A DNA stretch of 21,931 nt from a bacterium (lineage in GTDB: Bacteria > AUK180): NCBI GenBank assembly GCA_023144005.1, contig JAGLGN010000026.1, positions 1 through 21,931 on the forward strand. The letters are read 5' to 3'. This document shows, piece after piece, positions 236 to 16,506 of the stretch (its first letter is position 1; every line of letters starts with the position of its first letter). The notes below the pieces were generated by a model that was not told where the DNA came from, searched no databases, and saw nothing but the letters and a program-made list of their open reading frames with translations. The position numbers and the translations under genes are program-made.

Positions 236-249
236 TTAGTGTTCTGATT
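224..249. other. Near-perfect inverted repeat over the stop codon of the GGDEF gene
   Basis: AATCAGAGCACT (224-235) is followed after TT by AGTGTTCTGATT (238-249), 11 of 12 positions complementary. The two arms are the same sequence that ends the terminal inverted repeats of the element at 2235-2379, here placed head to head. It contains the stop codon and last codons (SEH) of the GGDEF gene. It could act as a 3'-end stem-loop, but no T-run follows on the minus strand, so it is not a typical intrinsic terminator. Confidence 0.7.
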
Positions 250-1357: not shown

Positions 1358-1358
1358 T

Positions 1359-2249
1359 TTATGCCCCCTCAAATAGTGAAATATATCGAACTCCGATCGT
1401 TCTCAGGACCGGAACATATGATAGTATCTTTTCCAGGAGCCCGGACAAAGGGAGTAATGTAAATATTTTTTCCGGTAAGAACATCCTGTAATATGTCTTC
1501 TTCTGTTTAAAGCCGTATCTACGCATCAGGCGTCTCAATTCCCCGGGAGAAAGCATTCTTTCATTGGCCTGAAAGATCTTCTTTCCTGTTTCAGGGTCAA
1601 TGTACTCAGAAGGAGTAAGGTAAATATCCCCGTCCATATGTTCATCTGGATCCAATTCCTTTCTCACATAACGGTCAAGACGCTCTTTATCAATATATTT
1701 CTTGAAGACCGGATTGTTAATATTCGATTCGGAAATGATCACCACTCCATCATTATTAAGTTTGTCACGAAGCAGTTTGAACAGGGTTTCCAAAGGGTGA
1801 ATATGCGAGATCGCCTCGGTGATCCAGATCAAGTCAAATTTTTGTTTTTCATCTAATTCGCTCAACCAGGAGAGCGCATCTCTTTCCATAATATGAAGGT
1901 CTTTTGAATTAAGATGATCCCTTAATTGCCGGAAGATCTGAAGACGATTTGATTCGATCTCGACTGCAAATACTTCGGCGCCATATTTGGCAAAAAGATT
2001 TGCGTCGATACCCAGACCGGCGCCTAACTCTAATACTTTTGGTGATTTACGGTTTTTCAACTCCCGAATAGCGGGAAATAGGCGTTCAGAATAGACAAAT
2101 GACGAATAAGCAGGAGATCTCTTGACGAAATGACGAGAAAGGTCTTCTTGTCGGATCTTGCTTTCAGCAAGATCTTTTATACTAAACCAATACTCTCTGA
2201 TCTCTTTTTTTATATGCAATTTTTTACCCCAAGTAGTGTTCTGATCCAT
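1359..2249 (-). CDS. Class I SAM-dependent methyltransferase
   Basis: About 296 aa from this start. The glycine-rich SAM-binding loop is VLELGAGLGID, followed by an acidic end of strand two (VFAVEIES), a motif like MERDALSWL and a strand-four motif FDLIWITEAISHIHP. The order is that of a class I (Rossmann) methyltransferase. The substrate cannot be told; the HIHPLETLFKLLRDKLNNDG stretch is like ubiquinone- or lipid-type family members. The reading frame is open up to an ATG at 2351, but all 34 extra residues would be encoded by the repeat element at 2235-2379. I therefore place the start at 2249 (MDQNTTW); neither start has a good Shine-Dalgarno, so this is uncertain. Even at 2249 the first five codons lie in the element's terminal repeat. 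It heads a two-gene unit with the GGDEF-PilZ gene. Confidence 0.85.
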   Translation of the reverse strand: MDQNTTWGKKLHIKKEIREYWFSIKDLAESKIRQEDLSRHFVKRSPAYSSFVYSERLFPAIRELKNRKSPKVLELGAGLGIDANLFAKYGAEVFAVEIESNRLQIFRQLRDHLNSKDLHIMERDALSWLSELDEKQKFDLIWITEAISHIHPLETLFKLLRDKLNNDGVVIISESNINNPVFKKYIDKERLDRYVRKELDPDEHMDGDIYLTPSEYIDPETGKKIFQANERMLSPGELRRLMRRYGFKQKKTYYRMFLPEKIFTLLPLSGLLEKILSYVPVLRTIGVRYISLFEGA

Positions 2250-2883: not shown

Positions 2884-4098
2884 TCATTCCCTCTCAAAAG
2901 CCCACTGCGAAATAAGGAATATGCCCATTCTCTCCAAAGGGAATTTCTCGGGAGGCATGGAGTTGAATGCCGCAAACAATTCTCGGCGGGGTAATAATCC
3001 GACTTCCACACCCGATAATGTTCTTACGGTGTGTTCTAAAAGAGGGGTTTTCTCAAAATACTTCCTTATTTTAGGATCTCCGACGAGTATTGTGTCAAGA
3101 GGATCTCCTTCCTTAAAGAGATTCTTGTAGGCATAGAAGATCGCGGAAGGGACCTTTCTGAACATCGAAAATCGTGAAAGTGCGTCAAGGGAGGTCAATG
3201 TCTTTGAATATGCCCCGTTGATGAGGGTCTTTTCCTCCGACTTCGGTGTAGAATAATCCCAGGAATAATCCCCTACCTTCTCCGCAATTTCAGATGTGTT
3301 TATGATGTACTCATCCTTCAGGCCGGTTTCGGACATCTCCTGAGCACTCTTGAAGTAGAATTGATCATTGGGGAATTTAAAACCCGAATAATAGCCGAAT
3401 CTGGTTCCGATGAGAAGTTCCTGCGCGAAGGCATCCTCCTTATTCAGATAATGCGCATCCTGCGCCGCGACGACCTTAACTTCCATCTTCCCCGCAAACT
3501 CGATCAAATGTTCGAACGCCTTTGTTTCATCGGGAATGAAATGGTCGGCAACTTCAAAATAGAGGTCCTCTCCAAAGAGATCTTTTAATTCGGATGCCAG
3601 CGACAATGCATTGTCGGTAGCGCCTGTAAAGAGGTATTGGGGAACCCCGCCATAATAACAGGCAGTAGTAATTATCAGTCCTTCACTGTAACGGGAAAGC
3701 AGCTCCACATCCAGTAAACCGCGTTCGACCGAACGCGGATGCATTCTGAAATAATTCTTTGTCCATGACTGATTATGCAGCATAATTAAATTCTGCAGGC
3801 CCTGATCGTTCTTTGCAATGACCACTAAGTGAAACCTCTCATTATCCTTGGTTTGAATGCTCTGCTGCGCATTTTTCACAAAATAAAATTCGCTGCCTAA
3901 AATCGGTTTGATATCGTGTTTATTTGCGGCCGTGATGAATCGGGGGAAAGCGGCCAGAGAATTATGATCTGTGAGAGCTACCGCTCGCTGACCGAGAAGA
4001 GATGCCTTTTCACAAAGCTTATCGCAGGAGATGATCCCATCATTGTGAGAACCGTCCGTATGAGTATGGATCGAGACATAATCCTGCTCTCTGACCAT
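2884..4098 (-). CDS. Stand-alone PHP-domain protein of the DNA polymerase III alpha (DnaE) type
   Basis: 404 aa. Residues 1 to about 260 follow the PHP domain of DnaE closely: SIHTHTDGS, AVALTDHNS, KPILGSEFYF, HLVVIAKNDQGLQNL, GLIITTACYYGG, AAQDAHYL. All the residues expected to bind the metal cluster are present: His11, His13, Asp44, His45, Glu70, His90, Cys147, Asp214 and His216. There is no polymerase palm, finger or beta-clamp motif, so this is not DnaE. The last 140 residues have no family I recognise. PHP domains act as phosphoesterases (3'-5' exonuclease or phosphatase); the substrate here is unknown. The ATG is two bases after the stop of the CheW-like gene, with no strong Shine-Dalgarno, so translation is probably coupled. 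Its place at the end of a chemotaxis-pilus operon is unusual. Confidence 0.85.
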   Translation of the reverse strand: MVREQDYVSIHTHTDGSHNDGIISCDKLCEKASLLGQRAVALTDHNSLAAFPRFITAANKHDIKPILGSEFYFVKNAQQSIQTKDNERFHLVVIAKNDQGLQNLIMLHNQSWTKNYFRMHPRSVERGLLDVELLSRYSEGLIITTACYYGGVPQYLFTGATDNALSLASELKDLFGEDLYFEVADHFIPDETKAFEHLIEFAGKMEVKVVAAQDAHYLNKEDAFAQELLIGTRFGYYSGFKFPNDQFYFKSAQEMSETGLKDEYIINTSEIAEKVGDYSWDYSTPKSEEKTLINGAYSKTLTSLDALSRFSMFRKVPSAIFYAYKNLFKEGDPLDTILVGDPKIRKYFEKTPLLEHTVRTLSGVEVGLLPRRELFAAFNSMPPEKFPLERMGIFLISQWAFERE

Positions 4099-4100
4099 GT

Positions 4101-4445
4101 TCAGGAACGGTCCAATATCTCTTCAGGACTTATTATTTCCGTGTTTTCCTGTATCTTCTTATAAATTCCAAATACCTCGCCGCAGCCGATGCCGAATTTT
4201 TTCTCCTTTACCTCAAGGACCAAAAGATACTTCTTTTCGATATCCACCGAAAGACCCAGTAATTTGGCGTTAACCACAGGGATAGACCCGTGCTCCATAT
4301 CAGCCATTTCAATGAATACATCCTTGTCTCCCGGATACGGAACGATCTTCGAAGGATAGCGATAGATATGACTCACATAAAGCGGGTCAATGGCATATTT
4401 CGCATCGCCGATGCCGATGTGCATATAATAGTTAACGGATGCCAT
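4101..4445 (-). CDS. Minimal CheW-like protein
   Basis: 114 aa, shorter than the usual 140-170 aa CheW. The pattern YAIDPLYVSHIYRYPSKIVPYPG, then GSIPVVNAKLLGL, then FGIGCGEVFGI follows the order of strands and turns in the CheW/SH3-like fold (interface strand, IPVV-DLR-like turn, GxxVD-like turn). The second subdomain seems reduced and the common NLRG-type motif is missing (MEHGSIPVV instead). CheW proteins join CheA to receptors; this divergent one may dock to another partner. It overlaps the end of pilT by 14 bp and runs two bases short of the PHP gene, so it is translated with PilT. Family assignment is moderately sure, function is not. Confidence 0.65.
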   Translation of the reverse strand: MASVNYYMHIGIGDAKYAIDPLYVSHIYRYPSKIVPYPGDKDVFIEMADMEHGSIPVVNAKLLGLSVDIEKKYLLVLEVKEKKFGIGCGEVFGIYKKIQENTEIISPEEILDRS

Positions 4446-5697
4446 AATGCTTATACAGTTCGACCAGCTCTTCCTTGTTCATTGTACGGGTCATGGCATC
4501 CTTTTTTGAGATGAGTCCTTTTTTCACAGCAACCGCGAATGCCTCGTTCATCGTCTGCATCTCATACTTCTTACCCACCTGAAGAGCGGAATAGACCTGA
4601 TGCAATTTATCCTCCCTGATCATCGCACGGATTGCAGGAGTAGGAACAAGGATCTCAGCGATCAGAGCACGGCCGCTTCTTCCCATTCTGGGAATGAGCT
4701 GCTGCGTCATAATCCCTTGGAGAACAAAAGCGAGCTGAGTTCTGACCTGGGATTGCTGATGCGCCGGAAAAACATCGATCATTCTGTTTATTGATTCAAT
4801 GGTGCTGTTCGTATGCAGGGTCGCAAAAACAAGGTGGCCCGTTTCCGCGATCGTAATGGCTGCGCCTATGGTCTCAAGATCTCTCATCTCACCGATCATA
4901 ATAACATCTGGATCTTCTCTCAATACATATTTAAGAGCAGTGGGAAAGCTTTCGGAATCCTCTCCGATCTGACGCTGATTGATGATCGATCTCTGATGCT
5001 GATGCGTGTATTCTATCGGATCTTCTATGGTGATGATATGAAGAGGCTTATTCCTGTTGATATAATTTATCATGGAGGCAAGTGTGGTGGATTTCCCCGA
5101 GCCTGTTGGTCCGGTGACCAGAACAAGGCCCTTGGGAACATCAACAAAACTTCTGACTGCAGATGGAAGGCCCAATTGATCAAAGTCAAGAATTGTATAT
5201 GGGATCTGCCTGATCGCGGTAGCGATCGCGCCGCGTTGTTTAAAAATATTCGCTCTGAAACGGGAGAGTTTCTGAATACCGAAGGAGAAATCAAGCTCAT
5301 TGCTCTGTTCAAAGTCCTTTTTCTGTTTATCTTTCAAAACCGAATACACCAGCGATTGGACCTTATCTGGAGTTAATTTGGAATACTGATACATCTTGTA
5401 AACATCCCCGTCAACGCGGACGCATGGAGGAATTCCAACGGTTAAATGGAGATCACTGGCACGGGACTCGACCATTTCAAATAGGAGCGTTTTCAGATCA
5501 GCGCTGGTTAAATTTGCTTTTGCTACATCAGGAGGCGGCGCCTTTGAGGGGTCTACTATAAAATAAACCTCTTTTCCCCTGAGTTTTCCTCTTGGAGTAA
5601 CATTCTTGGGAAGGTTCAATCCACCTGTAGCAACAGCATTCGCCTTCGGGGCCGAACTTGACTGACCCGTTTTCTCCACATTGTCAAAAAAAGCCAT
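4432..5697 (-). CDS. pilT: PilT-type type IV pilus retraction ATPase with N-terminal extension
   Basis: 421 aa hexameric ATPase that powers pilus retraction (twitching) at the inner membrane. The PilT/PilU N-terminal motif ASDLHLTVG is at about 80-88. The Walker A box GPTGSGKST is at 196-204, the Asp box IEDPIEY at about 224-230, Walker B IMIGEMRD at about 266-273 and the His box ATLHTNS at 292-298. AIRAMIRE (355-362) is a near match to the AIRNLIRE motif typical of PilT rather than PilB. Compared with usual PilT (about 345-365 aa) it has some 60 extra N-terminal residues, including a low-complexity SSSAPKAN stretch and a KEVYFIVDPSKAPPP segment. The start overlaps the cheR stop in TAATG with AAAGGAG upstream. 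Found among che genes, it is a likely output motor of this pathway. Confidence 0.92.
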   Translation of the reverse strand: MAFFDNVEKTGQSSSAPKANAVATGGLNLPKNVTPRGKLRGKEVYFIVDPSKAPPPDVAKANLTSADLKTLLFEMVESRASDLHLTVGIPPCVRVDGDVYKMYQYSKLTPDKVQSLVYSVLKDKQKKDFEQSNELDFSFGIQKLSRFRANIFKQRGAIATAIRQIPYTILDFDQLGLPSAVRSFVDVPKGLVLVTGPTGSGKSTTLASMINYINRNKPLHIITIEDPIEYTHQHQRSIINQRQIGEDSESFPTALKYVLREDPDVIMIGEMRDLETIGAAITIAETGHLVFATLHTNSTIESINRMIDVFPAHQQSQVRTQLAFVLQGIMTQQLIPRMGRSGRALIAEILVPTPAIRAMIREDKLHQVYSALQVGKKYEMQTMNEAFAVAVKKGLISKKDAMTRTMNKEELVELYKHYGIR

Positions 5698-6518
5698 TAT
5701 GTACTCCTTTTCTTCTTATATACTTTGTTTTTGTTCGAAACGACATCAAAAAGGGCCTTCCCATCTGAGAAGATCGTTTCAACCCGGCCCAAAACTAATT
5801 GGCCATCATCCCTGATATGTATTCTAAATGTGTTCAATATCTGATTCTGAAGCTCTCTGGAAAAATAAATGAACACATTGCGGCATAAGATAAGATCAAA
5901 TTTTACATCCCAGCAAGAGTTTATTAAATTCTGTATCTTGAATTCCACCTTATCACGGATCTCCGGAATAATATGGAAATAATTCCCCTGCCTTTGAGAG
6001 AACATATTAAAGACATTACGAAATCTCCCGTTAACACTGAAAAGAGATTTGGGCGTGTATACACCCTTCTGGGCAATTTCGACCGATGGCGTATCAATAT
6101 CTGTCGCGAAAACAGTAAATCTAAAATTTGCGCCTTTAGTGATTTTGTAATTTTGCAGAAGCATGGCGATAGAGTAAGCCTCTTCACCACTCGCACAACC
6201 GGCTGACCAGATATTCAGATGCCGCCGATCTGCGATCTCAGGAAGTATTGTGTCATAAATATAATCATATGTGGCCTCGTCCCTGAAGAATCTTGTTACA
6301 TTGATCGTAATGGTTTTGTATAGAACATTCAACTCTTTTTCATCGTCCAGGATGAGACTGATATAGTCATCGATATCTTCCAATTTGCATAGCATCATTC
6401 TTCTTTTGATCCTTCTGCTTAAACAGTTGATCTTATAGCTGGTGAAATCTGAATCGAACTTTTTCTTTAATATGTCAAATATTTCGTGGATCTTTACTTC
6501 ATTTAGAGGGTCTGCCAT
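5697..6518 (-). CDS. cheR: Chemotaxis protein methyltransferase CheR
   Basis: 273 aa. It methylates receptor glutamates with SAM in sensory adaptation, opposing CheB. The N-terminal helical domain (1-75) ends with TINVTRFFRD (71-80), the CheR signature. The SAM loop is WSAGCASGEEAYS (104-116), with ATDID (138-142), LILCRNVFIYF (209-219) and GQLVLGRVE further on. There is no C-terminal pentapeptide-binding insertion that I can see. It is joined to both neighbours by TAATG overlaps, with GGAG ahead of its own ATG. Confidence 0.95.
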   Translation of the reverse strand: MADPLNEVKIHEIFDILKKKFDSDFTSYKINCLSRRIKRRMMLCKLEDIDDYISLILDDEKELNVLYKTITINVTRFFRDEATYDYIYDTILPEIADRRHLNIWSAGCASGEEAYSIAMLLQNYKITKGANFRFTVFATDIDTPSVEIAQKGVYTPKSLFSVNGRFRNVFNMFSQRQGNYFHIIPEIRDKVEFKIQNLINSCWDVKFDLILCRNVFIYFSRELQNQILNTFRIHIRDDGQLVLGRVETIFSDGKALFDVVSNKNKVYKKKRST

Positions 6519-7822
6519 TATTTTTCTCCAATACTCTCTAAATTCGTTTTTGCGATCTTATTCTCCGGGTCGTGTTTTAAAGCATGCTTCCAGGCCTCCA
6601 CAGCTTGAGAGGTGTTACCCTCCTTGAGGTAGATCGCGCCGAGTTTCAGGTAGGTCTGAACATTGCCCGGTTGTATTTTTAATATCTCTTTGTACTTCCC
6701 AGTAGCATTTGTGAGGTCTCTGACCTTGTAAAAGTACCCCGCCATTTCCCAGAGCAAGGGAACATTACCCGAATTGTGCTTAAGACCCTGCTTCAGGTAG
6801 ACGACAGCCTTCTCGTCCTTTTTCAAACGAAAGAATATCTTTGCCAGAAGAAGGTATACAAATGGATGCTCGGGACTTATTTTTAAGACCTTGGTGAGAA
6901 CCTCCCCCGCATCTTTCAACTTGGAAAGGTATATGTCGCAAACAGCGATATATAAATAGATGATCGGATTGTCGGCAAACAAAGCAAGCACCTTCTGAAA
7001 TTCATTTAATGCCTGGCTATAAAGGCCTTCTTTAAAATAATTATAACCCTCATTAAAATACTCACTTTCACTTAAGAGGGATTCAACCTCTTCGGGGAAT
7101 TCCTTTCTCAATTCATCCGTAGCTGTCTCAGTTTCCGTAAGTACAATATTGCCATCCTTGATAAGTTTCTCTATTGCTTTGAATGTTTCAAAAAGTGAAT
7201 ACTTCCCCGAATTAAGGGCGCCGATCAGAGAGGGCGTCTTTTTTATGCCGTTCGCGAGACAATAGTCCAGATATCCCTTTGGGGTAGGCACTTTCACTAT
7301 TTTCACTCCCGATCTAAGGTTTAAATCTGAGAAATAAGTAGCGATCGCCTCGGCACGCATCAAGGAATCCATGATAAGCTTCTGAATATCGATCTTTATC
7401 CCGGATTTCTTGAACTTATCCATTTCCTGATTGGTCATGGCATTGAAAGTGAATTTACCGAATTCGATCCCAATGATATCCAGAAGAAGCTCTTTGATAT
7501 GTTCCGCTTTCATCTCATCCAATTTGGCCTTGCTAACGCTTTTCTCCTGGATCAAAAGGTTCAGGACCTCTGCCTGTTTCTTCGATTTTGACAAGAGCTC
7601 CTTGATCTTTTCCAAAGAGAGACCGGACTTAATAAAATATAGTTCTAATAAACTTGTCTTCAGAAAATTTGTTTCAACATTGCATATATTTCCATTGAGA
7701 ATGTATATATTGTACTTGAATTCATCTATGCCGACCTCCAATATACCGGTCTTCGTGGAAAAGAAGAAGAGTTGAAATATTGTCGGCAAATGTATTGTGT
7801 TTATATTTCCTTGAAACGTCAT
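6518..7822 (-). CDS. PATAN (DUF4388) domain protein with C-terminal TPR repeats
   Basis: 434 aa. The N-terminus, MTFQGNINTIHLPTIFQLFFFSTKTGILEV with YILNGNICNVE, is the PATAN/DUF4388 pattern; residues about 100-150 (HIKELLLDIIGIEFGKFTF) fit its second half. Residues about 155-250 look like a further helical region. From about 255 to 430 there are roughly five TPR units with the usual small-residue and aromatic spacing. PATAN proteins in cyanobacteria are known to bind the pilus motor PilB and steer phototaxis. That precedent, and the neighbouring pilT, suggest this protein links the Che pathway to the pilus motor; this is inference. The ATG follows the stop of the TPR gene by one base, with AGGAAG as Shine-Dalgarno. 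Confidence 0.85.
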   Translation of the reverse strand: MTFQGNINTIHLPTIFQLFFFSTKTGILEVGIDEFKYNIYILNGNICNVETNFLKTSLLELYFIKSGLSLEKIKELLSKSKKQAEVLNLLIQEKSVSKAKLDEMKAEHIKELLLDIIGIEFGKFTFNAMTNQEMDKFKKSGIKIDIQKLIMDSLMRAEAIATYFSDLNLRSGVKIVKVPTPKGYLDYCLANGIKKTPSLIGALNSGKYSLFETFKAIEKLIKDGNIVLTETETATDELRKEFPEEVESLLSESEYFNEGYNYFKEGLYSQALNEFQKVLALFADNPIIYLYIAVCDIYLSKLKDAGEVLTKVLKISPEHPFVYLLLAKIFFRLKKDEKAVVYLKQGLKHNSGNVPLLWEMAGYFYKVRDLTNATGKYKEILKIQPGNVQTYLKLGAIYLKEGNTSQAVEAWKHALKHDPENKIAKTNLESIGEK

Positions 7823-7823
7823 T

Positions 7824-9731
7824 TCATCTTCCTGTTGAACTTTCCAATTTTTTTATCCAATCACTGGCCTCGGTAATTCCCGAGCGGGCTTCCCTGATCT
7901 TCGCCTTATCTTTTCCTTCTTTTATAAACTCGCCCCAAAGCTCTTTTGCTTCCTTGTACCATGCCTTGTTGAAGAAAACCTTCGCCAGATAAAATTTCAC
8001 ATCAATGAAGTCGTCTTTCAATTCCAGGGTGCGGCGATACTCCCATGCCGCTTCATCCCACCATCCCGAAAATGCATAAACACTTGCCAGATTATAATGT
8101 GAAACGGGGTCATTAGGATCGATCTGAATAGCCTTGGTAAACATCTTTATCGCACCCTTAGCATTCTTGCTCATTTGATAAAGAGCGCCGAGGTTGATGT
8201 ATACCTCCTTTTGCTTCACTTTGTCCTTGATGAGTTTTTCATATATTGAGATCGCATCCGGCACCTTTTTTTCCCTGACATAAAGATTTGCCAGTTTCAT
8301 CTTATAATTAATATTATCCGGGGTAATGCTGATCGCCTCCAGAAGCAGTTTCCGGGCCTTATTATAATTTTTCAATTGACTGTTAAGCATAGAGAGTTCC
8401 AGATAGATACCGGGATTCTTCGGCTCCATTCTTAACCCCTCTTTCAGATATTTCTCCGCCTTATCAAAATTCTTGATCATCCTGTAGGCTCTACCCAATT
8501 TAACTCTGATCTCCTTTTTATTCGGGTTCTTCTTAAGGATCGAATTCAATTGTTCTATGGCTTTTTTATATTCCCCTTCCTCCAAAAGGACGGAAGAATA
8601 GATATCAATACCATCCAGAAAATTAGGATTGATCTTAAGCGATTTTTCAAGAAGTTTTTTTCCTCTCTCCCGGTTACCTTTCTCGTATAAGATATATCCG
8701 ATGAACCCTATTGCGTAATAATTGCCAGGATCACTCCCCTCCACCTCTTCAAAGATCTCAAGCGCGCGATCATGGTCACCCGTTTCATACTCCACCTTCG
8801 CGAGATTGATCTTTGCGTCAAGATAGTCGGGATTGATCGCCAATGCCTTGGTCAAATAGTCACGTGCGGGATCCGGCTGTTTTAAGGCATGGTATAGAAC
8901 ACCAAGATTATTCAACAATGTCTCATTGTCGTCCTCGAGTTCCATAGCTCTTTCAAGGTATTCTATCGCCATCGTGAATTGTTTCTCTTTGATATAGATC
9001 TTGCCGAGATTGATATGGGGCTCTGAGAATTCAGGATCCAATTCGACAGCTTCCTTTAATTTTTCAATGGCTTCACTTATCCGGTTAGTAGAGAGAAAAA
9101 CCTGTGCCATCGTATTCGCAACCCTTGCTTTATCAGGATCGCGTTTCTTTTTTAATACTTCGGCATCCTCTTCATACATTGCCATGGCTTTTTCATCTAT
9201 CGCTATTCTTTTGGTCTCCGCGAAGTTCGGATTGATCTCGATTGCGGTATTGTATTCTTCCTGGGCCTGATCATAGAAACCCTTTTCTCCGTATAGGAAA
9301 GAGAGGTTATAATGGGCAAGGGCATTCTTGGCATTTATGCTTAACGCCTTTTTGAATAGTTTAAGGGCATTATCATACATTCCCATGTGATAATATATCT
9401 CACCTAAGGAGTTATAAGCGTCGTCCATCTTCTTATTTTTTAAAATGGCCCTTTTATATAGGGCGATGGCATCGTCGTAGGTATAAACCGTTTTATCTTC
9501 TGATTCAGTTTCAAAGTCATAACCGTCTTCGATAGCCTTTTTCACTGCCTGCGCATAATTCTTTATGGCAAGAGTATATTCGGAATCCAGGGTAAGGGCT
9601 TTCTTGAAGGAATCGATGGCTTCTGCATAAAGTTCTTTGGAATAGAAAAAAGCTCCCAGATTGTTCAAAGACGCTGGAGAGTTCTCATCCACCTTCGCAG
9701 CGAATTTCTTAAAAAATTCTTTCTTACTCAT
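7824..9731 (-). CDS. Large TPR-repeat protein
   Basis: About 635 aa, nearly all tetratricopeptide repeats (roughly 14-16 units of 34 residues), recognisable from repeated patterns such as AYNSLGEIYYHMGMYDNALKLF and INLGKIYIKEKQFTMAIEYL. TPRs are protein-protein scaffolds. There is no signal peptide, so it is probably cytoplasmic. A charged stretch (about 90-100, FETESEDKTVYTYDD) breaks the repeats. The ORF is open to a TTG at 9752; the ATG at 9731 (MSKKEFF) is chosen because it overlaps the cheW stop by eight bases (ATGAGTAA) and begins a normal TPR N-terminus. Between cheW and the PATAN gene, it is a candidate scaffold for the pathway. Confidence 0.9.
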   Translation of the reverse strand: MSKKEFFKKFAAKVDENSPASLNNLGAFFYSKELYAEAIDSFKKALTLDSEYTLAIKNYAQAVKKAIEDGYDFETESEDKTVYTYDDAIALYKRAILKNKKMDDAYNSLGEIYYHMGMYDNALKLFKKALSINAKNALAHYNLSFLYGEKGFYDQAQEEYNTAIEINPNFAETKRIAIDEKAMAMYEEDAEVLKKKRDPDKARVANTMAQVFLSTNRISEAIEKLKEAVELDPEFSEPHINLGKIYIKEKQFTMAIEYLERAMELEDDNETLLNNLGVLYHALKQPDPARDYLTKALAINPDYLDAKINLAKVEYETGDHDRALEIFEEVEGSDPGNYYAIGFIGYILYEKGNRERGKKLLEKSLKINPNFLDGIDIYSSVLLEEGEYKKAIEQLNSILKKNPNKKEIRVKLGRAYRMIKNFDKAEKYLKEGLRMEPKNPGIYLELSMLNSQLKNYNKARKLLLEAISITPDNINYKMKLANLYVREKKVPDAISIYEKLIKDKVKQKEVYINLGALYQMSKNAKGAIKMFTKAIQIDPNDPVSHYNLASVYAFSGWWDEAAWEYRRTLELKDDFIDVKFYLAKVFFNKAWYKEAKELWGEFIKEGKDKAKIREARSGITEASDWIKKLESSTGR

Positions 9732-10143
9732 AGAATTCGAGAACCTTCTCAAGACTTAATATCATTATCGGTTTATCGTTGACCTTTCCTAAACCATATA
9801 CAAAATCCTCTTCGATACGGAAAATATTTTTATTTTCGCGGTTGATCTCATCCTCGGACAATTCCACGACCTCCAGAACCTCATCAATGACAAGTCCATA
9901 TTTCTCTTCCCGCCAAAGAACTATGATGACATCCTGGCTGCTGCCTTCTTCAAGAGCATCCATGGACAAGCGCTTTCTCAGATCAAGAACGGTGATGATC
10001 TCACCTCTGAGGTTCATAAATCCCGTAATGATCGGATTAACTCCGGGAACAGATTTTAATGAGAATTCTTTTACGATCTCCTTAACCTTCATTATGTCAA
10101 AACCGAATAGTTGATCTCCCAATCTAAAGGAAACAGATTTCAT
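9724..10143 (-). CDS. cheW: Chemotaxis adaptor CheW
   Basis: 139 aa, a single CheW domain. It couples receptors to CheA in the chemosensory array. Key patterns are FGFDIMKVKEIVK near the N-terminus, GFMNLRGEIITVLDLRKRL (about 41-59, the canonical NLRG-xxxPVxDLR region) and GLVIDEVLEVVEL (about 83-95). It is the most canonical of the three CheW-like proteins in this operon. The start overlaps the cheC stop in TAATG. Confidence 0.93.
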   Translation of the reverse strand: MKSVSFRLGDQLFGFDIMKVKEIVKEFSLKSVPGVNPIITGFMNLRGEIITVLDLRKRLSMDALEEGSSQDVIIVLWREEKYGLVIDEVLEVVELSEDEINRENKNIFRIEEDFVYGLGKVNDKPIMILSLEKVLEFYE

Positions 10144-10739
10144 TACACCAATCCTAATTTATCTAAAATAACCTTCAATCCATTATTGAAGGGCGCAAGT
10201 ATGAAATACGGAGTGTATTCCCTGGCCTTGTCCGAAAGATTGGTCTTAATAATGAAGATCTCTTCCGAAATATTGATCTCTGTCTCAAAAATATCTATAA
10301 AGATATCCTCAAGTGTCCCTGAAAAAAATGTAGGTACAGACGGTATCATGAGAAGGTTTATCATATCCCCCATGGCACCCAGATAATTGGCAGTGAGAAT
10401 ATTTCCGATCTCCTTAATTGTGGAAATGCCGTTCTCGTCCAATTGTGTCACTACATCGGTCTTGCCTGTCATGAGCCTGCTTACCATACTGATACCTTCG
10501 CTTTTCTCAACAAAAAACACATTCTTACCCGGAATCTCTCCCAGGATGACGAATTCCACCGCAAAGAATTCTTTATCTTTTAACGACGCGTGCAGATTGC
10601 TTCTATTGACAATATTTGTTTGAGGAATATCTATGGTGATCTCTCTATGTATCAGGCTTGCCAGAGCGGTCGCCGCATGGCCGGCGCCGATATTCCCCAA
10701 CTCCTTCAAGGCATCTATCTGTATATTAGTCAATTTCAT
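10143..10739 (-). CDS. cheC: CheY-P phosphatase CheC (two intact active sites)
   Basis: 198 aa. CheC dephosphorylates CheY-P and is stimulated by CheD. The family signature (D/S)xxxExxN followed 23 residues later by P occurs twice: Asp9-Glu13-Asn16 with Pro39, and the SxxxExxN in STIKEIGN with a matching proline in MIPSVP. Both half-sites therefore look functional, as in Thermotoga CheC. It lies two bases after cheA (stop TAG, GGAG within the preceding codons), which gives a strong translational link. A second, partly degenerate paralogue is at 14248-14871. Confidence 0.9.
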   Translation of the reverse strand: MKLTNIQIDALKELGNIGAGHAATALASLIHREITIDIPQTNIVNRSNLHASLKDKEFFAVEFVILGEIPGKNVFFVEKSEGISMVSRLMTGKTDVVTQLDENGISTIKEIGNILTANYLGAMGDMINLLMIPSVPTFFSGTLEDIFIDIFETEINISEEIFIIKTNLSDKAREYTPYFILAPFNNGLKVILDKLGLV

Positions 10740-10741
10740 TT

Positions 10742-12721
10742 CTACTCCAAGAGTGCCGCGATATCCAATATCAAAGCGGGCTCTCCATTTGAAAGAAGGC
10801 CTTTACCCGAATAGAGTTTTGCCTTCTTCAATATCGAATCAAGATTCTTGATAACCGTCTGCTGCTTGGAATGCAGCTGGTCAAAAACCAGTCCGGCGAT
10901 CTTGTCTCCGAGCTCTACGAATATTACTGGAAATACTTCTCTTTCTTGTCTCTCAAATCCAAGCACTTCATCCATACGGATCAGAGGGACGACCAGCTCA
11001 TTTCTGAGAAAGATCACTTCCCTGCCTTTTATGATCTGAATGCTATCCTTCGTCTGTTCCATTGTCTCTTGGATATTAGAGATCGGGATAAGGAATTTAA
11101 CACCGCGTACCGATACGATCAGCGTCTGAATAATAGCCAGGGTCATAGGCAGGACGATATGAAAGTTCGTTCCTTTTCCTTTAGTGGATTCGATCTTCAG
11201 AACTCCGTTCAGGGAATCGATCTTATTCTTGACAACATCCATACCCACACCGCGGCCGGATAACTCAGTAACCTTATCCGATGTTGAGAACCCGGGTTTG
11301 CATATGAGCATAAATACATCGGACTTGCTCATTGTGGAAAGTTTCTCTTTCGTCACAACACCCATTTTCAGGGCCTTACTCTGTATCTTATTGATATCCA
11401 GGCCATTGCCGTCATCGTTCACTTCTATAACTACACGGTTCTTCTCTCTGCGTGCGATGAGGTTTATATTCGCGGTTTCAGCCTTACCTAATTTCTTCCT
11501 CTCCTTCGGGGTTTCAACACCATGATCCACGGCGTTTCGGAGAAGATGAATGAGCGGCTCGTCTATCTCGTCAAGGATAACCCTGTCCAACTCAATGCCG
11601 CTGCCAGTAATGGTAATATTGACTTTTTTATTGAATTTTCTGGAAATATCTCTGACAATGCGAGGATACTTATTGAAAATATGTCCCACGGGTACCATTC
11701 TCGCCAGAAGAATTCTATCCTGAAGATTCGCTGTTATCCTCTGAAAGTTGTTTATCTCGTCATTAAGAGGTTTGATATTGTAATCTTTGGAAATGTCATC
11801 AAGCCGTATCGTATTGATGATCAATTCGCCGATTAGGTTGACAAGGGCGTCAAGATGCGATATCTTCACCTTAATAGTAGGTTCAACTATAGATTTCTTT
11901 TTCTTCTTGTCAATAGGGGCTGAGGGAGCGGCAACCGGAGGTTCAGGAGCATTTTGCTCGGAATTAAGGCTCTCCTTGCTTATCGGCTCCATTGAAATGC
12001 TATCGACCTCGCGAATGGAATTCAGGATCTGATATGTTTCATTTGGTTCCTGATCGCCTGTAAAAAAGACCACAAACTCATATAGGTCTTCACTTTCTTC
12101 AAGTTCTTCGGCGGCGGGGATCGTTTTGATTATGGTGCCGAGCTCAGACAATTTCTGTGTTATTTGAAATACCCTTACAGAGGGCATAACAGCATTTTTC
12201 GATATGTTAATGGTGAATTGAAGGACTGCGTTGCCGGTATCAAGTAATTGCTCGAAGGCCTTCGCCTCAAAGTCGCTATAGCTTATAACGATCCCATGTT
12301 CTTTCCTTACGGTTACAGCAGCATCCGATTCGGAAGAAAGGGTTCCAGAGAGAAATTTCCTGATCTTCGCCGCATGATCTCCGCTTCCTTCGGGTTCTTT
12401 TCCCGTTTCTGCAACACTATCCAGCATTGCCTTGAGATCGTCCAGCCATGCATAAAAAAGGTCAAAATCAGAGAGGCTGAAATCCAGTTTTCCCGATTTA
12501 ATCTGGCTGAATACATCTTCAAGCGCATGGGACACTTCCGATATGGAAATGAAGTTCATGGCGGAAGCCATTCCCTTCAAGGTATGTGTATTACGGAAGA
12601 TCAATTCTATATTCTCATTTCTTTCATTCCCGTTTTCGATCTCCAGCAAAGCATTGTTCATGCTCTCCATATAGTCAAAGGATTCACTAAGGAACATCTC
12701 CAGGTATTTATTGTCTTCCAT
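10742..12721 (-). CDS. cheA: Chemotaxis histidine kinase CheA
   Basis: 659 aa, a full CheA. The P1 domain (1-105) has the phosphorylated histidine His46 in NTHTLKGMASA. A P2-like CheY/CheB-binding domain is at about 140-245, then a Pro/Ala and Lys-rich linker (255-280). P3 dimerisation helices run from about 282 to 340. The P4 kinase domain has the N box HLLRNAVDHG (392-401), G1 DDGNGLD (436-442), F box GFSTSD (477-482) and G2 GRGVGM (489-494). The P5 CheW-like domain is about 530-659. Nothing essential is missing. There is no fused receiver and only one Hpt domain, unlike the multi-domain ChpA kinases of the Pseudomonas pilus pathway. The start overlaps the cheB stop (TAATG). Confidence 0.96.
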   Translation of the reverse strand: MEDNKYLEMFLSESFDYMESMNNALLEIENGNERNENIELIFRNTHTLKGMASAMNFISISEVSHALEDVFSQIKSGKLDFSLSDFDLFYAWLDDLKAMLDSVAETGKEPEGSGDHAAKIRKFLSGTLSSESDAAVTVRKEHGIVISYSDFEAKAFEQLLDTGNAVLQFTINISKNAVMPSVRVFQITQKLSELGTIIKTIPAAEELEESEDLYEFVVFFTGDQEPNETYQILNSIREVDSISMEPISKESLNSEQNAPEPPVAAPSAPIDKKKKKSIVEPTIKVKISHLDALVNLIGELIINTIRLDDISKDYNIKPLNDEINNFQRITANLQDRILLARMVPVGHIFNKYPRIVRDISRKFNKKVNITITGSGIELDRVILDEIDEPLIHLLRNAVDHGVETPKERKKLGKAETANINLIARREKNRVVIEVNDDGNGLDINKIQSKALKMGVVTKEKLSTMSKSDVFMLICKPGFSTSDKVTELSGRGVGMDVVKNKIDSLNGVLKIESTKGKGTNFHIVLPMTLAIIQTLIVSVRGVKFLIPISNIQETMEQTKDSIQIIKGREVIFLRNELVVPLIRMDEVLGFERQEREVFPVIFVELGDKIAGLVFDQLHSKQQTVIKNLDSILKKAKLYSGKGLLSNGEPALILDIAALLE

Positions 12722-13755
12722 TACTTTCTCATAAATTTTTCAATGATATCAGGCATTCCGCTGAGATCGGCTTCATAATCGGCATATCCCTCTTGGATAA
12801 CTGCACCCGGCATGCCCCAAATGAACGCGGAGGCGCGCGATTGAGCAGCCACCATTCCTCCGAAATCCTTGATAACTTTGCAGCCCAGCGTGCCGTCACG
12901 GCCCATCCCGGTAAGAACGATCCCGAGGGTGTTCTTTTTGAAAAGTTGGGCGGCGGAATCAAAAAGGTAATCCGCGGCAGGCCTAACTCCCCACAAAGGA
13001 GGTTCTTTGGTCAGGCTTGAAAAAAGGCGCTTGTCCTTGACATCTATCTTAAAATGATTATTCCCTTTTCCCAGGTAGATCTTATTCGGAAGCAGTGGTT
13101 CTTCGGCTTCAACTTCTTTTACCTCGATCTCTGATATTCTGTTCAAACGCTCAGAGAAACTCTTTGTAAAGGTCTGCGGCATATGCTGAACAAGAAAAAT
13201 ATACGCTCCCAATTCTGATGGAATAGAGGGAACTAATTTTTCCAGAGCTTTAGGACCGCCCGTAGAAGCCGCGATAACAATACATTTACCCATTATTCCC
13301 GCTTTAGATGCCTCCACCTTTCGAATATGCTCTCTGTTCAGACGCTGAATTTTCTCAATAGGTATCAATGCTATCTCTTGAAGTTTTGAAACGATCTTAT
13401 GCTTGATGCTTCTCAGATTAGGAGATATCACTCCGGACGGCTTCTGGATCACATCGACCGCGCCGCATTTCAATGCGTTCAAAGTCGGCATCGCGTCAAC
13501 TGCACCAAATGCGCTGAGTATCACGATCTTGGTGGGATTGTCCCTCATAATGGCACGAACAGATTCGATGCCGTCCATCACAGGCATTTCAATATCCATG
13601 GTGACTATGTCTGGTGACAGGGTCTTCACCATTTCAACCGCTTCAGCGCCATTTTTTGCCAGGCCGATAACCTCGAAACCATCGATATCAGAAACGATAT
13701 CTTTGATGATATTTCTCATTAAGGCTGAATCATCGACTATTAATACTTTCGTCAT
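12721..13755 (-). CDS. cheB: Protein-glutamate methylesterase/deamidase CheB
   Basis: 344 aa. It removes methyl groups from receptors and deamidates them. The receiver domain (1-120) has the acidic pair in LIVDDS, phosphorylated Asp54 in VTMDIEMP and Lys105 in IQKPSG. The esterase domain (about 155-344) has the catalytic Ser164 in ASTGGP, His191 in VQHMP and Asp287 in GMGRDGT, at almost the same numbers as in E. coli. The usual AQDEASAVVWGMP stretch reads AQSRASAFIWGMP, a small departure. The first four bases overlap the cheD stop (ATGA). Confidence 0.95.
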   Translation of the reverse strand: MTKVLIVDDSALMRNIIKDIVSDIDGFEVIGLAKNGAEAVEMVKTLSPDIVTMDIEMPVMDGIESVRAIMRDNPTKIVILSAFGAVDAMPTLNALKCGAVDVIQKPSGVISPNLRSIKHKIVSKLQEIALIPIEKIQRLNREHIRKVEASKAGIMGKCIVIAASTGGPKALEKLVPSIPSELGAYIFLVQHMPQTFTKSFSERLNRISEIEVKEVEAEEPLLPNKIYLGKGNNHFKIDVKDKRLFSSLTKEPPLWGVRPAADYLFDSAAQLFKKNTLGIVLTGMGRDGTLGCKVIKDFGGMVAAQSRASAFIWGMPGAVIQEGYADYEADLSGMPDIIEKFMRK

Positions 13756-14246
13756 ACTACTAAGACCGGTTTATTGATACTGACAACCTTCACCTTGCCG
13801 GATTTCAATTCCAATTCAATTGTCCGGCCGTAATCCTCGCCGGTAATCTCCGCTTTTAAAGGTATCCGCTGCTTGACCAGCTCTTCTTTAACGGCAATTA
13901 CATTGCGTTTTCCGATATCCATGGAATCCCGTTCTGATTCAAAAGAGAACATCTTCGCTCCACCAAAGATCTTTGCTTCAAAGTTTATTATGTCGCCGCC
14001 GGCCGAAATAAGACTTGAGATCATTGTCCTTATTGCGGTGTCGGCATACTTCCCTTCCTTTACCAGAGCGCTGCTCTTGGCAATAGAAGAAGAAGGCAAC
14101 ATAACATGGGCCATCCCTCCCAATTTCTTATCGGGGTCATAAATGGTTATTCCCACGCAGGAACCGAGTCCATAAGTAACAAGGACATCATTATCCTTGC
14201 CTACCTTGAAATCTCCCATTCCGACTTTTACTTTGATTCCTTCCAA
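13752..14246 (-). CDS. cheD: Chemoreceptor glutamine deamidase CheD
   Basis: 164 aa. CheD deamidates receptor glutamines and activates CheC. The catalytic triad is Thr24, Cys30 in GLGSCVGI and His47 in GGMAHVMLP, spaced exactly as in Thermotoga CheD. IFGGAKMF and the NVIAVKEELVKQRIPL region follow as in the family. It starts with TTG, four to five bases after GGGGAG; the length of the N-terminus before the Cys supports this start over the internal ATG. It begins one base after the stop of the CheC paralogue and overlaps cheB by four bases. Confidence 0.94.
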   Translation of the reverse strand: MEGIKVKVGMGDFKVGKDNDVLVTYGLGSCVGITIYDPDKKLGGMAHVMLPSSSIAKSSALVKEGKYADTAIRTMISSLISAGGDIINFEAKIFGGAKMFSFESERDSMDIGKRNVIAVKEELVKQRIPLKAEITGEDYGRTIELELKSGKVKVVSINKPVLVV

Positions 14247-14247
14247 A

Positions 14248-14871
14248 TTACTCCCCTTTCAATTTCTGCATGATAGAAAGAAAGGACTCCTCGGTAGGCA
14301 TAAAGATGATATCAAAGAGGATCTCACGCTCGGCAGTTACGAATTCGTTCTTAAGAAGCAGCAGTTCATTTGATTCCGAAGCTGATTCAATACAGAACTC
14401 ATCCACAATACTGCCAAGGATATCGTACTTGATCTGCGGTGCGGATTGGATCATAGGCGCATTGATCATATTACCTATCGCGGAAACGTACGAGGAGATG
14501 ATGATATTGCCGATCTCCAAAAGGACAGAGCGTACCATTTCCTGTTTATGATCATTGAAGTCAAGACCCTCGACCTTTTGCCGGATCAAGACCTCTGCTA
14601 TGCTCTTTGCTTCCTCAACTGAGAACAGTATGAGAAATCTAGATGGGTATTTGCCTGTCAAATAGGCAAATACAACGACCTTTTCCAATTCCGGCCCGCC
14701 AAGATTATCAGGCATCTCTTCGGGTGAGATCACATCCAGGGATGGGACTTGCATGGAAATCGGTTGCGCCAGTATTTCAGAAAGGGATGTCGCGGCATTG
14801 CCAGTGCCAATGCTGCACAGTTCTTTTAGAACATCCCGTTCAAACTCGCCCAACTCATGATAATACCCCAT
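14248..14871 (-). CDS. CheC-family protein with one intact site
   Basis: 207 aa. The second active-site signature is complete (SVLLEIGN, with the downstream proline in IQSAP). In the first one the asparagine is replaced: DVLKELCS, where Asn is expected at the last position, although the downstream proline (QVPSL) is kept. Such single-site CheC relatives may be weaker phosphatases, CheD-binding regulators, or resemble CheX/FliY. No FliN-like C-terminus is present, so it is not FliY. It lies between cheY and cheD, which suggests it is the direct CheD partner. GAGGG precedes the ATG; it starts two bases after the cheY stop. Confidence 0.85.
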   Translation of the reverse strand: MGYYHELGEFERDVLKELCSIGTGNAATSLSEILAQPISMQVPSLDVISPEEMPDNLGGPELEKVVVFAYLTGKYPSRFLILFSVEEAKSIAEVLIRQKVEGLDFNDHKQEMVRSVLLEIGNIIISSYVSAIGNMINAPMIQSAPQIKYDILGSIVDEFCIESASESNELLLLKNEFVTAEREILFDIIFMPTEESFLSIMQKLKGE

Positions 14872-14873
14872 AT

Positions 14874-15254
14874 TTAACCCTCAAGTATCCTTGTAATCGC
14901 CTCAATCACAGAGGACGGCTGAAAGGGTTTTACCACAAAGTCCTTGGCACCGGCCTGAATGGCCTCGATGACAAGTGCTTTCTGACCCATAGCGGAGCAC
15001 ATCAAGATCTTTCCATTGGGGTCGATCTTCATAATTGCCTTCACCGCTTCAATCCCCCCCATTCCGGGCATTACAATGTCCATTGTGACCAGATCCGGCT
15101 GCAGGCGCTGGTATTTTTCAACCGCCTCTTTTCCAGTACTGGCTTCACCGACGACTTCATAACCGTTCTTTTCAAGGATATCTCTTATCATGGTCCTCAT
15201 AAAGATGGCATCATCGGCAATTAGAACTTTAAGCTTATTTCCAGCTTCGTTCAT
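14874..15254 (-). CDS. cheY: Response regulator CheY
   Basis: 126 aa single receiver domain. The acidic pair is Asp14/Asp15 in IADDAIFMR, the phosphorylated Asp59 is in VTMDIVMPGM, the switch serine is Ser87 in MCSAMG and the conserved lysine is Lys109 in VVKPFQ. No output domain is attached, so it acts by binding a partner; with pilT and a PATAN protein in the operon the pilus motor is a candidate, though a flagellar switch elsewhere cannot be excluded. A strong AAGGAGG precedes the start, the best ribosome binding site in the operon, which suggests high expression. Confidence 0.94.
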   Translation of the reverse strand: MNEAGNKLKVLIADDAIFMRTMIRDILEKNGYEVVGEASTGKEAVEKYQRLQPDLVTMDIVMPGMGGIEAVKAIMKIDPNGKILMCSAMGQKALVIEAIQAGAKDFVVKPFQPSSVIEAITRILEG

Positions 15255-15265
15255 ACAAAACCTCC

Positions 15266-16009
15266 TTATTTGGCTTTTATTGCTTTTTCCAATTCAAGTT
15301 TCTCTTCGCTTGAGAAGAGATTATGCAAATTCACCAGTGATACCACGCTCTCCGTAGCGTCTCTGGTATACTTTAAAATTTTATGCAGATAGTCGTTAAC
15401 TCCGCTGATAAGTCTGGGAGGGTCGAACACACTTACTTGTTTGAGATAAATAACCTCTATGATCCTGCGGGTCAGGATACATATCTTTTTATCACCCAGA
15501 GAGCAAACAATACCAAAGTGCTTCCCTGGGTCATTGGGCAGGCCCAATTTCATCTCCAGGTTCACCACAGGGATCATTTCGTCTCTCAAATTAAAAAGAC
15601 CCTCGACATATTCTTCAACATTCGACAACGCATTAATCTTATCAACTATAACTATCTCAATAATGTGAAGGATATCAATGGCATACTCTCCTTCGCCCAA
15701 AGCAAAAGATATAACCTCACTGACCGCCGAGAGGCTCTCCTGATCTGTGAGAACAGGAGCATCTTCAGAGTGTTGATCTGTCGGGGTAAACCCCTCCGGT
15801 TCGGCAGAAGCCGCCTTCTCTTCGTTTTCCGCAGCGAATACCTCAACGGCAGATTCATCTGCGGTACGCTCAACTTTTTCAACCGCCTCATCCTGAACCG
15901 CGGCTGGGTCTTCCTTCAATACGGTCTTCTTCTTGGGAGAGGCTTTTTTCTTGATAGCTTTTCTTACCTTACCCCCTATCTTGAAGTAGTTATACTTATT
16001 TTTTGTCAT
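15266..16009 (-). CDS. CheW-domain protein with long charged N-terminal linker
   Basis: 247 aa. Residues 1-95 are low in complexity: a basic start (KVRKAIKKKASPKKK) and then an acidic, Ala/Glu-rich stretch, probably disordered. The CheW domain is at about 97-235: VISFALGEGEYAIDILHIIEIV, GLFNLRDEMIPVVNLEMKLGL (NLRD in place of the usual NLRG) and KICILTRRIIEVIYL. It is presumably a second adaptor that reaches other partners through its linker. It overlaps the cyclic-nucleotide gene by 14 bp and precedes cheY by 11 bp. The basic head could bind membrane or nucleic acid, but this is a guess. Confidence 0.85.
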   Translation of the reverse strand: MTKNKYNYFKIGGKVRKAIKKKASPKKKTVLKEDPAAVQDEAVEKVERTADESAVEVFAAENEEKAASAEPEGFTPTDQHSEDAPVLTDQESLSAVSEVISFALGEGEYAIDILHIIEIVIVDKINALSNVEEYVEGLFNLRDEMIPVVNLEMKLGLPNDPGKHFGIVCSLGDKKICILTRRIIEVIYLKQVSVFDPPRLISGVNDYLHKILKYTRDATESVVSLVNLHNLFSSEEKLELEKAIKAK

Positions 16010-16460
16010 TCTGCTCTTCGAGTTTAACCATCTTTTGATTCATCTGTTTCAGCCTTTCACTCAGCTTCTTCACGATATTTAAAAGAATCTTAAGGGCGAT
16101 CTCCGGTTCCTTGTAGATCATGTCATTGAAACATTTACGAGTGATGACCAAAAGTTGGGAATCCTCCGCTATCTTGGCAGTTGCTGATCTCTGATCCTCA
16201 TCGATCAAAGAAAGTTCCCCCAAATAATCCCCTTTCTTAATGGATACCAGAAAGATATTCTCCTCGTCATCTTTACTCTTTTTGTAAAGATCAACGACGC
16301 CCGTAAGAATTACATACATGATCCCCCCCTGCATTCCTTCAAAGAATAGAGTCAGTCCATTCTTGTAATCTTTTACGAATGCAAGTTGAAGAACCCTTTC
16401 CATCTCATCCTTGGTTAATCCTCTGAAAAGTGGGATGTTCTCCAGTAGTTTATAATCCAT
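15996..16460 (-). CDS. Single-domain cyclic-nucleotide-binding protein (Crp-like sensor domain)
   Basis: 154 aa from this start. LLENIPLFRGLTKDEMERVL opens the cNMP-binding fold, and GELSLIDEDQRSATA (81-95) is the phosphate-binding cassette with the expected Glu and Arg. There is no helix-turn-helix, so it is not a transcription factor; a C-terminal coiled helix (KKLSERLKQMNQKMVKLEEQ) could pair with a partner. It is the first gene of the chemosensory operon and may bring a cAMP or related signal to it. The ORF is open to an ATG at 16499, but that lies upstream of the predicted transcription start and has no Shine-Dalgarno, whereas AGGAAAA precedes the ATG at 16460. Confidence 0.88.
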   Translation of the reverse strand: MDYKLLENIPLFRGLTKDEMERVLQLAFVKDYKNGLTLFFEGMQGGIMYVILTGVVDLYKKSKDDEENIFLVSIKKGDYLGELSLIDEDQRSATAKIAEDSQLLVITRKCFNDMIYKEPEIALKILLNIVKKLSERLKQMNQKMVKLEEQNDKK

Positions 16461-16477
16461 AAGTTTTCCTATTCTTG

Positions 16478-16506
16478 ATTTTACTATATTTCCTCTCATT
16501 TATCAA
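16478..16506 (-). promoter_or_regulatory. Sigma70-like promoter of the chemosensory-pilus operon
   Basis: On the minus strand TTGATA (16501-16506), a 17-bp spacer and TAAAAT (16478-16483). Transcription should start near 16471, giving a leader of only about 11 bases that still holds AGGAAAA before the first ATG. A weaker second set (TTTGGA, 16 bp, TACAAT) lies further upstream. Confidence 0.7.

Follow-up and report, generated by a model that had tools for sequence, protein, structure and literature searches.

Which machine does a chemosensory operon drive when a pilus retraction motor is encoded within it? The question is raised by contig JAGLGN010000026.1 (assembly GCA_023144005.1), a stretch of 21,931 bases that was analysed whole and is called the window below; it belongs to a draft genome (2.67 Mb, 96% complete) of the bacterial lineage AUK180. 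Fifteen minus-strand genes run from position 16499 down to 2884 in the order cNMP-cheW1-cheY-cheC1-cheD-cheB-cheA-cheC2-cheW2-TPR-PATAN-cheR-pilT-cheW3-PHP, with intergenic distances of −29 to +11 bp. We consider it probable that this operon serves a nutrient-sensing chemotaxis directed at type IV pili, in which phosphorylated CheY (CheY-P) would act through tetratricopeptide repeat (TPR) and PATAN scaffolds on pilus polarity and motors. The route from chemosensory arrays to pilus motors is open even in Pseudomonas and Myxococcus, and the operon offers a compact, testable parts list linking chemotaxis, polarity and pilus retraction.

Conservation of the operon and its probable motility output

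Seven draft genomes of the phylum, from two families, were compared: five genomes of four genera in the family of the window (G000 to G004, where G000 is the window genome, G003 is in the same genus and G001 is 91% complete in 360 contigs), and two in a sister family (G005 and G006). The order of all 15 genes is kept in the five genomes of the window family, on single contigs in the window genome, G003, G004 and G002, and on two contigs in G001, where the contig break falls inside the PATAN gene. Conservation of this order across the family indicates that the arrangement is not due to chance, and the operon is a real, conserved and probably pilus-steering chemosensory one.

The flagellar protein FlhA was not found in any of the seven phylum genomes; the search did detect it in four control genomes. 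The window genome has a type IV pilus cluster with a prepilin peptidase (pilD), pilM, pilN and a secretin; a pilin, several PilB-like ATPases and PilT-like ATPases are also present. Because FlhA is missing, type IV pilus genes are present, and pilT, PATAN and TPR are linked to che genes in all five family genomes, the output of the operon is, on the sequence evidence, most likely the pilus. Its CheA, CheC and CheD, closest in kind to the Thermotoga/Halo-type flagellar and archaellar proteins, might suggest that the operon serves flagellar chemotaxis and that the remaining genes are unrelated neighbours; the absence of FlhA from all seven genomes led us to reject a flagellar output, and we leave this explanation almost no probability. 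The operon thus places the phosphatase and adaptation chemistry of CheC and CheD in a lineage where no flagellum was detected, one whose gene content points to cells that may crawl toward nutrients by pulling on pili.

Genes for polarity are found as well. Six of the seven phylum genomes have a match to MglA, and that of the window genome, whose nearest solved structures are named MglA (PDB, 259 bits), is flanked by two roadblock genes followed by a PATAN gene, in a cluster separate from the operon. By sequence, the same arrangement occurs in the other genomes of the family. PATAN-family genes also lie beside recA-like genes, named from sequence (L045:5725-7995 and L047:2395-4177, in G001 and G006).

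The sister family divides the operon into two parts. In G005, cheY to cheR are kept together with TPR and PATAN-TPR, while in G006 PATAN-TPR and cheR are kept on a short contig; in both, a phosphohexomutase-like gene (named from sequence) follows cheR. The sister-family ortholog of PilT is a stand-alone gene, 66-67% identical, with carbamoyltransferase/carbamate kinase-like neighbours in G005 and murJ/ogt-like neighbours in G006 (likewise named from sequence). In the PilT tree, the operon-borne and sister-family proteins form one group (support 94), and two further PilT groups are separate and run through the phylum. Since pilT is absent from the sister-family operon and che, TPR and PATAN are present there, gene content makes che/CheC/TPR/PATAN a shared core and pilT, cheW3 and PHP a family-specific tail. 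The preliminary description of the window had named the gene order of related genomes as a check and had regarded unlinking of pilT, PATAN and TPR from che in relatives as fatal to its pilus-directed system. The order held throughout the family and failed for pilT in the sister family; PATAN and TPR stayed linked.

A wider search covered other lineages. CheA was searched in 290 genomes, of which 45 matched at E 1e-90, and around the best outside matches 40 stretches were read, none longer than 20 kb or reaching beyond 10 kb to either side. The order CheW-CheY-CheA-CheC-TPR-PATAN was present in five of the 40 (L193, L202, L205, L206 and L218), and in L205 the next genes encode a TPR-roadblock protein, an MglA-like product and a DnaA-type protein. 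No PilT match was found in any of the 40 stretches, and none to CheB, CheR or CheD beside the five clusters. In the CheA tree, the window group and these lineages fall into one 19-row set with 99% support, within which the two together do not make up a separate single clade. By gene order, then, CheC-type che systems repeatedly come with the TPR-PATAN pair, which in one lineage also accompanies MglA. The lack of PilT in these clusters makes us lean towards a gain of the pilT tail in the window family more than a loss in the sister family, a comparison of two families only. Proteins with a DnaA ATPase domain lie beside other lineages' clusters (L205:2-1297 and L193:17221-19296), one of them with two such domains, and in another lineage's che-TPR cluster a 705-amino-acid protein, actin-type ATPase-like by eye, directly follows cheC (L192:6216-8333).

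Gene content and motifs

The preliminary description had read the window as che and pilus genes packed in one orientation with overlaps, and this was confirmed by Pfam or NCBIfam profile matches for every one of the 15 genes; its upstream end at 16460 required correction, as the first gene starts at 16499. That gene (15996..16499) encodes a protein of 167 amino acids with a cyclic-nucleotide-binding domain (Pfam PF00027, cNMP_binding, 2.1e-18), and its binding-cassette motif GDYxGExSLI..RSATAK aligns in all five family genomes. Promoter and terminator scans of the operon gave matches at chance level only.

The signalling proteins follow. CheW1 (15266..16009) has an N-terminal extension of about 95 residues before its CheW domain (PF01584, 3.7e-23, residues 98-235), while CheW2 (9724..10143; 6.2e-31) is a core coupling protein. 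CheY (14874..15254; PF00072, 7.7e-32) is a single receiver domain, 82-98% identical among orthologs phylum-wide and the least diverged operon product in the more distant relatives. Alignment of CheC1 (14248..14871; PF04509, 4.9e-13; NCBIfam CheC, 119 bits) shows the second ExxN phosphatase motif intact and the Asn of the first gone in every ortholog; in the window copy of CheC2 (10143..10739; PF04509, 1.5e-17) both motifs are intact. CheD, a receptor deamidase/methylesterase (13752..14246; PF03975, 6.5e-32), keeps the aligned motifs GSC and AH(V/I)M. CheB (12721..13755) is a methylesterase with a receiver domain (NCBIfam NF001965, 361 bits against a cut-off of 293; Pfam, 1.5e-56), CheR (5697..6518) a methyltransferase (PF01739, 4.7e-48), and CheA (10742..12721) has one Hpt, P2, dimerisation, ATPase and CheW domains by Pfam, with no receiver.

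Two putative scaffolds are encoded between cheW2 and cheR. The large TPR protein (7824..9752; Pfam TPR_2, 2e-75) has 642 amino acids as a TTG-started open reading frame, although its start is probably the ATG at 9731, seven codons inside. Its PDB matches are TPR superhelices, and it may be described as SgmX-like in kind. The second protein (6518..7822) joins a PATAN domain (DUF4388; PF14332, 7.7e-17) to a C-terminal TPR array (TPR_2, 7e-21); in its AlphaFold model the C-terminal TPR helices are confident, and the PATAN part has low confidence, too weak for a fold search.

The family-specific tail begins with pilT (4432..5697), which overlaps cheR by 1 bp in the window. Its product matches the retraction ATPase profile TIGR01420 (480 bits against a cut-off of 319) and contains Walker A, Walker B, LHT and AIRxMIRE motifs. 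The best PDB matches are Geobacter-type PilT (421 and 419 bits), with PilU at 271; by these matches it is a true type IVa pilus ATPase of the PilT/PilU family, nearer to solved PilT than to PilU. An N-terminal extension of about 60 residues (residues 1-64) contains a short motif, G..(V/I)(Y/F)F, that is seen only in the operon-borne orthologs and is missing from the stand-alone proteins of the sister family, an operon-specific feature that is suggestive only. The window genome encodes a second PilT paralog, in a same-strand run (L052:7767-14469) that also includes a histidine kinase, a receiver standing alone, an HD-domain protein and a further receiver protein named from sequence; a matching PilT occurs in G003.

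CheW3 (4101..4445), a divergent, C-terminally shortened protein of 114 amino acids, was seen only in the family of the window. It matches the CheW profile weakly (PF01584, 1.6e-06, profile positions 3-93 of 138) and is without the last third of the domain, the profile alignment to CheW2 stopping at residue 94 of 139. It was not equated with FrzB, another shortened CheW, which is without an internal 20-residue stretch (PMC6952110), whereas CheW3 is without the C-terminal third. The last product (2884..4098) is a PHP-domain protein of the DNA polymerase III alpha (DnaE) type with no polymerase (PF02811, 1.3e-37; PDB DnaE PHP, 7.9e-31). Its metal-ligand-type motifs HTHxxGS, TDH, CYYG and QDAHY are kept in alignments; its AlphaFold model, with a pLDDT (predicted local distance difference test) of 56, is too weak for a fold search. 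With CheY highly conserved and the CheC, CheD, cNMP and PHP motifs kept to the extent described, the signalling chain looks functional.

After a 65-bp gap, OsmC, methyltransferase and GGDEF-PilZ genes follow on the same strand, the last at 236..1372 (Pfam GGDEF, 2e-40; PilZ, 2.2e-09). This order beside the operon is kept in G003 and G002, a conserved neighbourhood that suggests the GGDEF-PilZ protein as a possible cyclic di-GMP (c-di-GMP) partner.

A proposed route from receptor to pilus motor

No gene for a receptor (methyl-accepting chemotaxis protein, MCP) lies in the window, and five lie elsewhere in the window genome. G001 has a single receptor and one detectable CheA. Every other family genome has an ortholog of this receptor (56-94% identical), as does G005 (37%); no other receptor has orthologs in all five family genomes. 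In G000 it has HAMP and MCP domains. As the sole receptor of G001, with orthologs across the family, it is the best candidate for the input of the operon. In G000 its gene stands in a run (L141:7735-15999) with a solute-binding protein, two ABC permeases, an adenine deaminase and a phosphopentomutase-type metalloenzyme; by sequence, gene order is alike in G002 and G004 and, over shorter stretches, in G003, G001 and G005. The receptor probably senses the substrate of the adjoining transporter, and from the neighbouring genes a sugar or a nucleoside would be our guess. The L141 run may itself be a unit for chemotaxis to, and uptake of, a nucleoside or sugar.

From gene content, order, conservation and motifs we infer the following contacts and behaviour. 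The membrane chemoreceptor encoded beside the solute-binding protein and permeases would signal to CheA via CheW2 and probably CheW1, and CheA would phosphorylate the single CheY. CheR, CheB and CheD would tune gain through receptor methylation and deamidation, while CheC1 and CheC2 would dephosphorylate CheY-P. CheY-P would act on the large TPR protein and PATAN-TPR scaffolds, and these on polar pilus machines also governed by an MglA/roadblock polarity module, the outcome being which pole pulls. In the family of the window, pilT, the shortened CheW and the PHP phosphoesterase-like protein would link the supply of the retraction motor to the signalling complex and might also dock the motor there; as a speculation, nucleotide signals could enter through the cNMP-binding and PHP proteins. 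Published precedents exist for the scaffold step: SgmX, a 14-TPR protein, connects MglA to polar PilB in Myxococcus (PMC11580455, PMC7668184), PATAN proteins co-occur with SgmX (PMC11580455), and earlier work recorded PATAN genes in the neighbourhood of mglA and mglB (PMC4316618).

How far does this route extend to PilT itself? That pilT lies within the operon points to co-regulated retraction, and the pathway might plausibly gate PilT directly. A stronger proposal would have CheC/CheD-adapted CheY-P dock or gate PilT through its N-terminal extension, via PATAN-TPR/TPR and CheW3, giving taxis by retraction control beyond pilus extension and polarity; we think this unlikely. A narrower form of the pilus-directed reading holds that the che-TPR-PATAN core steers pili via extension and polarity (PilB, MglA) and that pilT is co-expressed only, with no direct role as target. 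The sister-family operons, which keep che, TPR and PATAN with pilT standing alone elsewhere, agree with it, as do the two other PilT clades of the phylum, the lack of a PilT match in the stretches read around the clusters of other lineages, and the published target of PATAN regulators in Synechocystis, the extension motor PilB (cited in PMC10519157 and PMC7690835). Set against these are the position of pilT, which does not vary among the five family genomes and their four genera, its overlap with cheR in the window, and the motif restricted to operon-borne copies; we give the narrower form nearly an even chance.

A different output would be a surface programme other than taxis (matrix, c-di-GMP or cNMP), Dif- or Wsp-like, with PilT used for surface sensing and not for steering. 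The cNMP-binding protein at the operon head and the downstream GGDEF-PilZ gene would fit such a programme, and Geobacter Dif-like clusters likewise have CheC and CheD (PMC2577667). However, soluble-nutrient taxis is what one typically associates with the full CheR/CheB/CheD set, a CheY of one domain, CheC phosphatases and a receptor encoded next to a solute-binding protein, and PATAN and TPR point to the motor. Moreover, of the chemosensory families for type IV pili (Tfp), flagella (Fla) and alternative cellular functions (ACF) summarised in PMC3447774, single-domain response regulators are typical of Fla and Tfp, not of ACF, and we regard the surface programme as quite improbable.

The preliminary description had CheA/CheY output act on PilT through PATAN and TPR scaffolds. 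In the sister family, pilT lies outside the operon, whereas TPR and PATAN stay with che, which weakens that proposal at its motor and leaves its support from FlhA, the pilus genes and family-wide linkage in place. Pilus-directed taxis remains the reading we prefer, although several points weigh against it. The likeness of the large TPR protein to SgmX is one of kind, and all the genomes compared are drafts. The window genome has two further che systems, and in G003 one such system has MglA about 5 kb away, so that polarity could belong to it. Finally, the receptor assignment depends on co-occurrence in few draft genomes, the incomplete and fragmented G001 among them.

Comparison with known systems

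The individual pieces of the operon are known, and their union in one operon (a CheC/CheD che set, PATAN/TPR and pilT) appears to be undescribed: no description of the CheC/CheD, PATAN and PilT combination was found in the open-access literature, nor any open-access paper on DUF4388 with chemotaxis. The preliminary description had held, as far as its knowledge went, that pilus-linked che systems do not combine these elements; for CheC with CheD this is too broad, given the Geobacter Dif-like clusters, and for the triple it stands within that literature. What the family keeps is an operon-like block of signalling proteins, TPR/PATAN scaffolds and a retraction motor, and another lineage encodes the scaffold pair with an MglA-like gene.

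The Pil-Chp system of Pseudomonas aeruginosa is similar in that a chemosensory array steers type IV pili. There pilT and pilU are found close to the chp genes, the CheA protein (ChpA) is large, with multiple Hpt domains and a receiver, and two response regulators, PilG and PilH, are present; to our knowledge, Pil-Chp is without CheC, CheD and PATAN. In contrast with this Tfp-class layout, the operon has a CheA with one Hpt and no receiver, and one stand-alone CheY. Reviewers' drawings of Pil-Chp include PilT/PilU (PMC12632253). The Frz system differs by its CheA-CheY fusion (FrzE) and two-receiver response regulators, neither of which the operon has. F1-like flagellar pathways are matched by CheA with P2, CheC, CheD and a single-domain CheY, as judged by general domain profiles, but FlhA was not found in any of the seven genomes.

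Closer parallels are found among systems with PATAN or CheC. Synechocystis Tax/Pix clusters share PATAN within a che cluster, and their PATAN binds PilB; there, however, PATAN is fused to CheY or a receiver, whereas in the operon it is fused to TPR only and CheY is separate, and PMC10519157 and PMC7690835 describe neither CheC/CheD nor pilT in those clusters. Dif-like clusters of Geobacter and Myxococcus share CheC and CheD with CheA, CheW and CheY; they hold a receptor gene, while the operon holds none and has CheB and CheR, and the text of PMC2577667 does not mention pilT, PATAN or TPR. The MglA-SgmX-PATAN module of Myxococcus xanthus offers a TPR scaffold, PATAN by co-occurrence, MglA and control of polar PilB (PMC11580455, PMC7668184), but no chemosensory operon is described there, and in the operon's own genome MglA lies in a separate cluster. 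The clusters of L193, L202, L205, L206 and L218 share both gene order and CheA group with the operon, but no CheB, CheR or CheD match was found beside these five and no PilT match in the stretches read around them.

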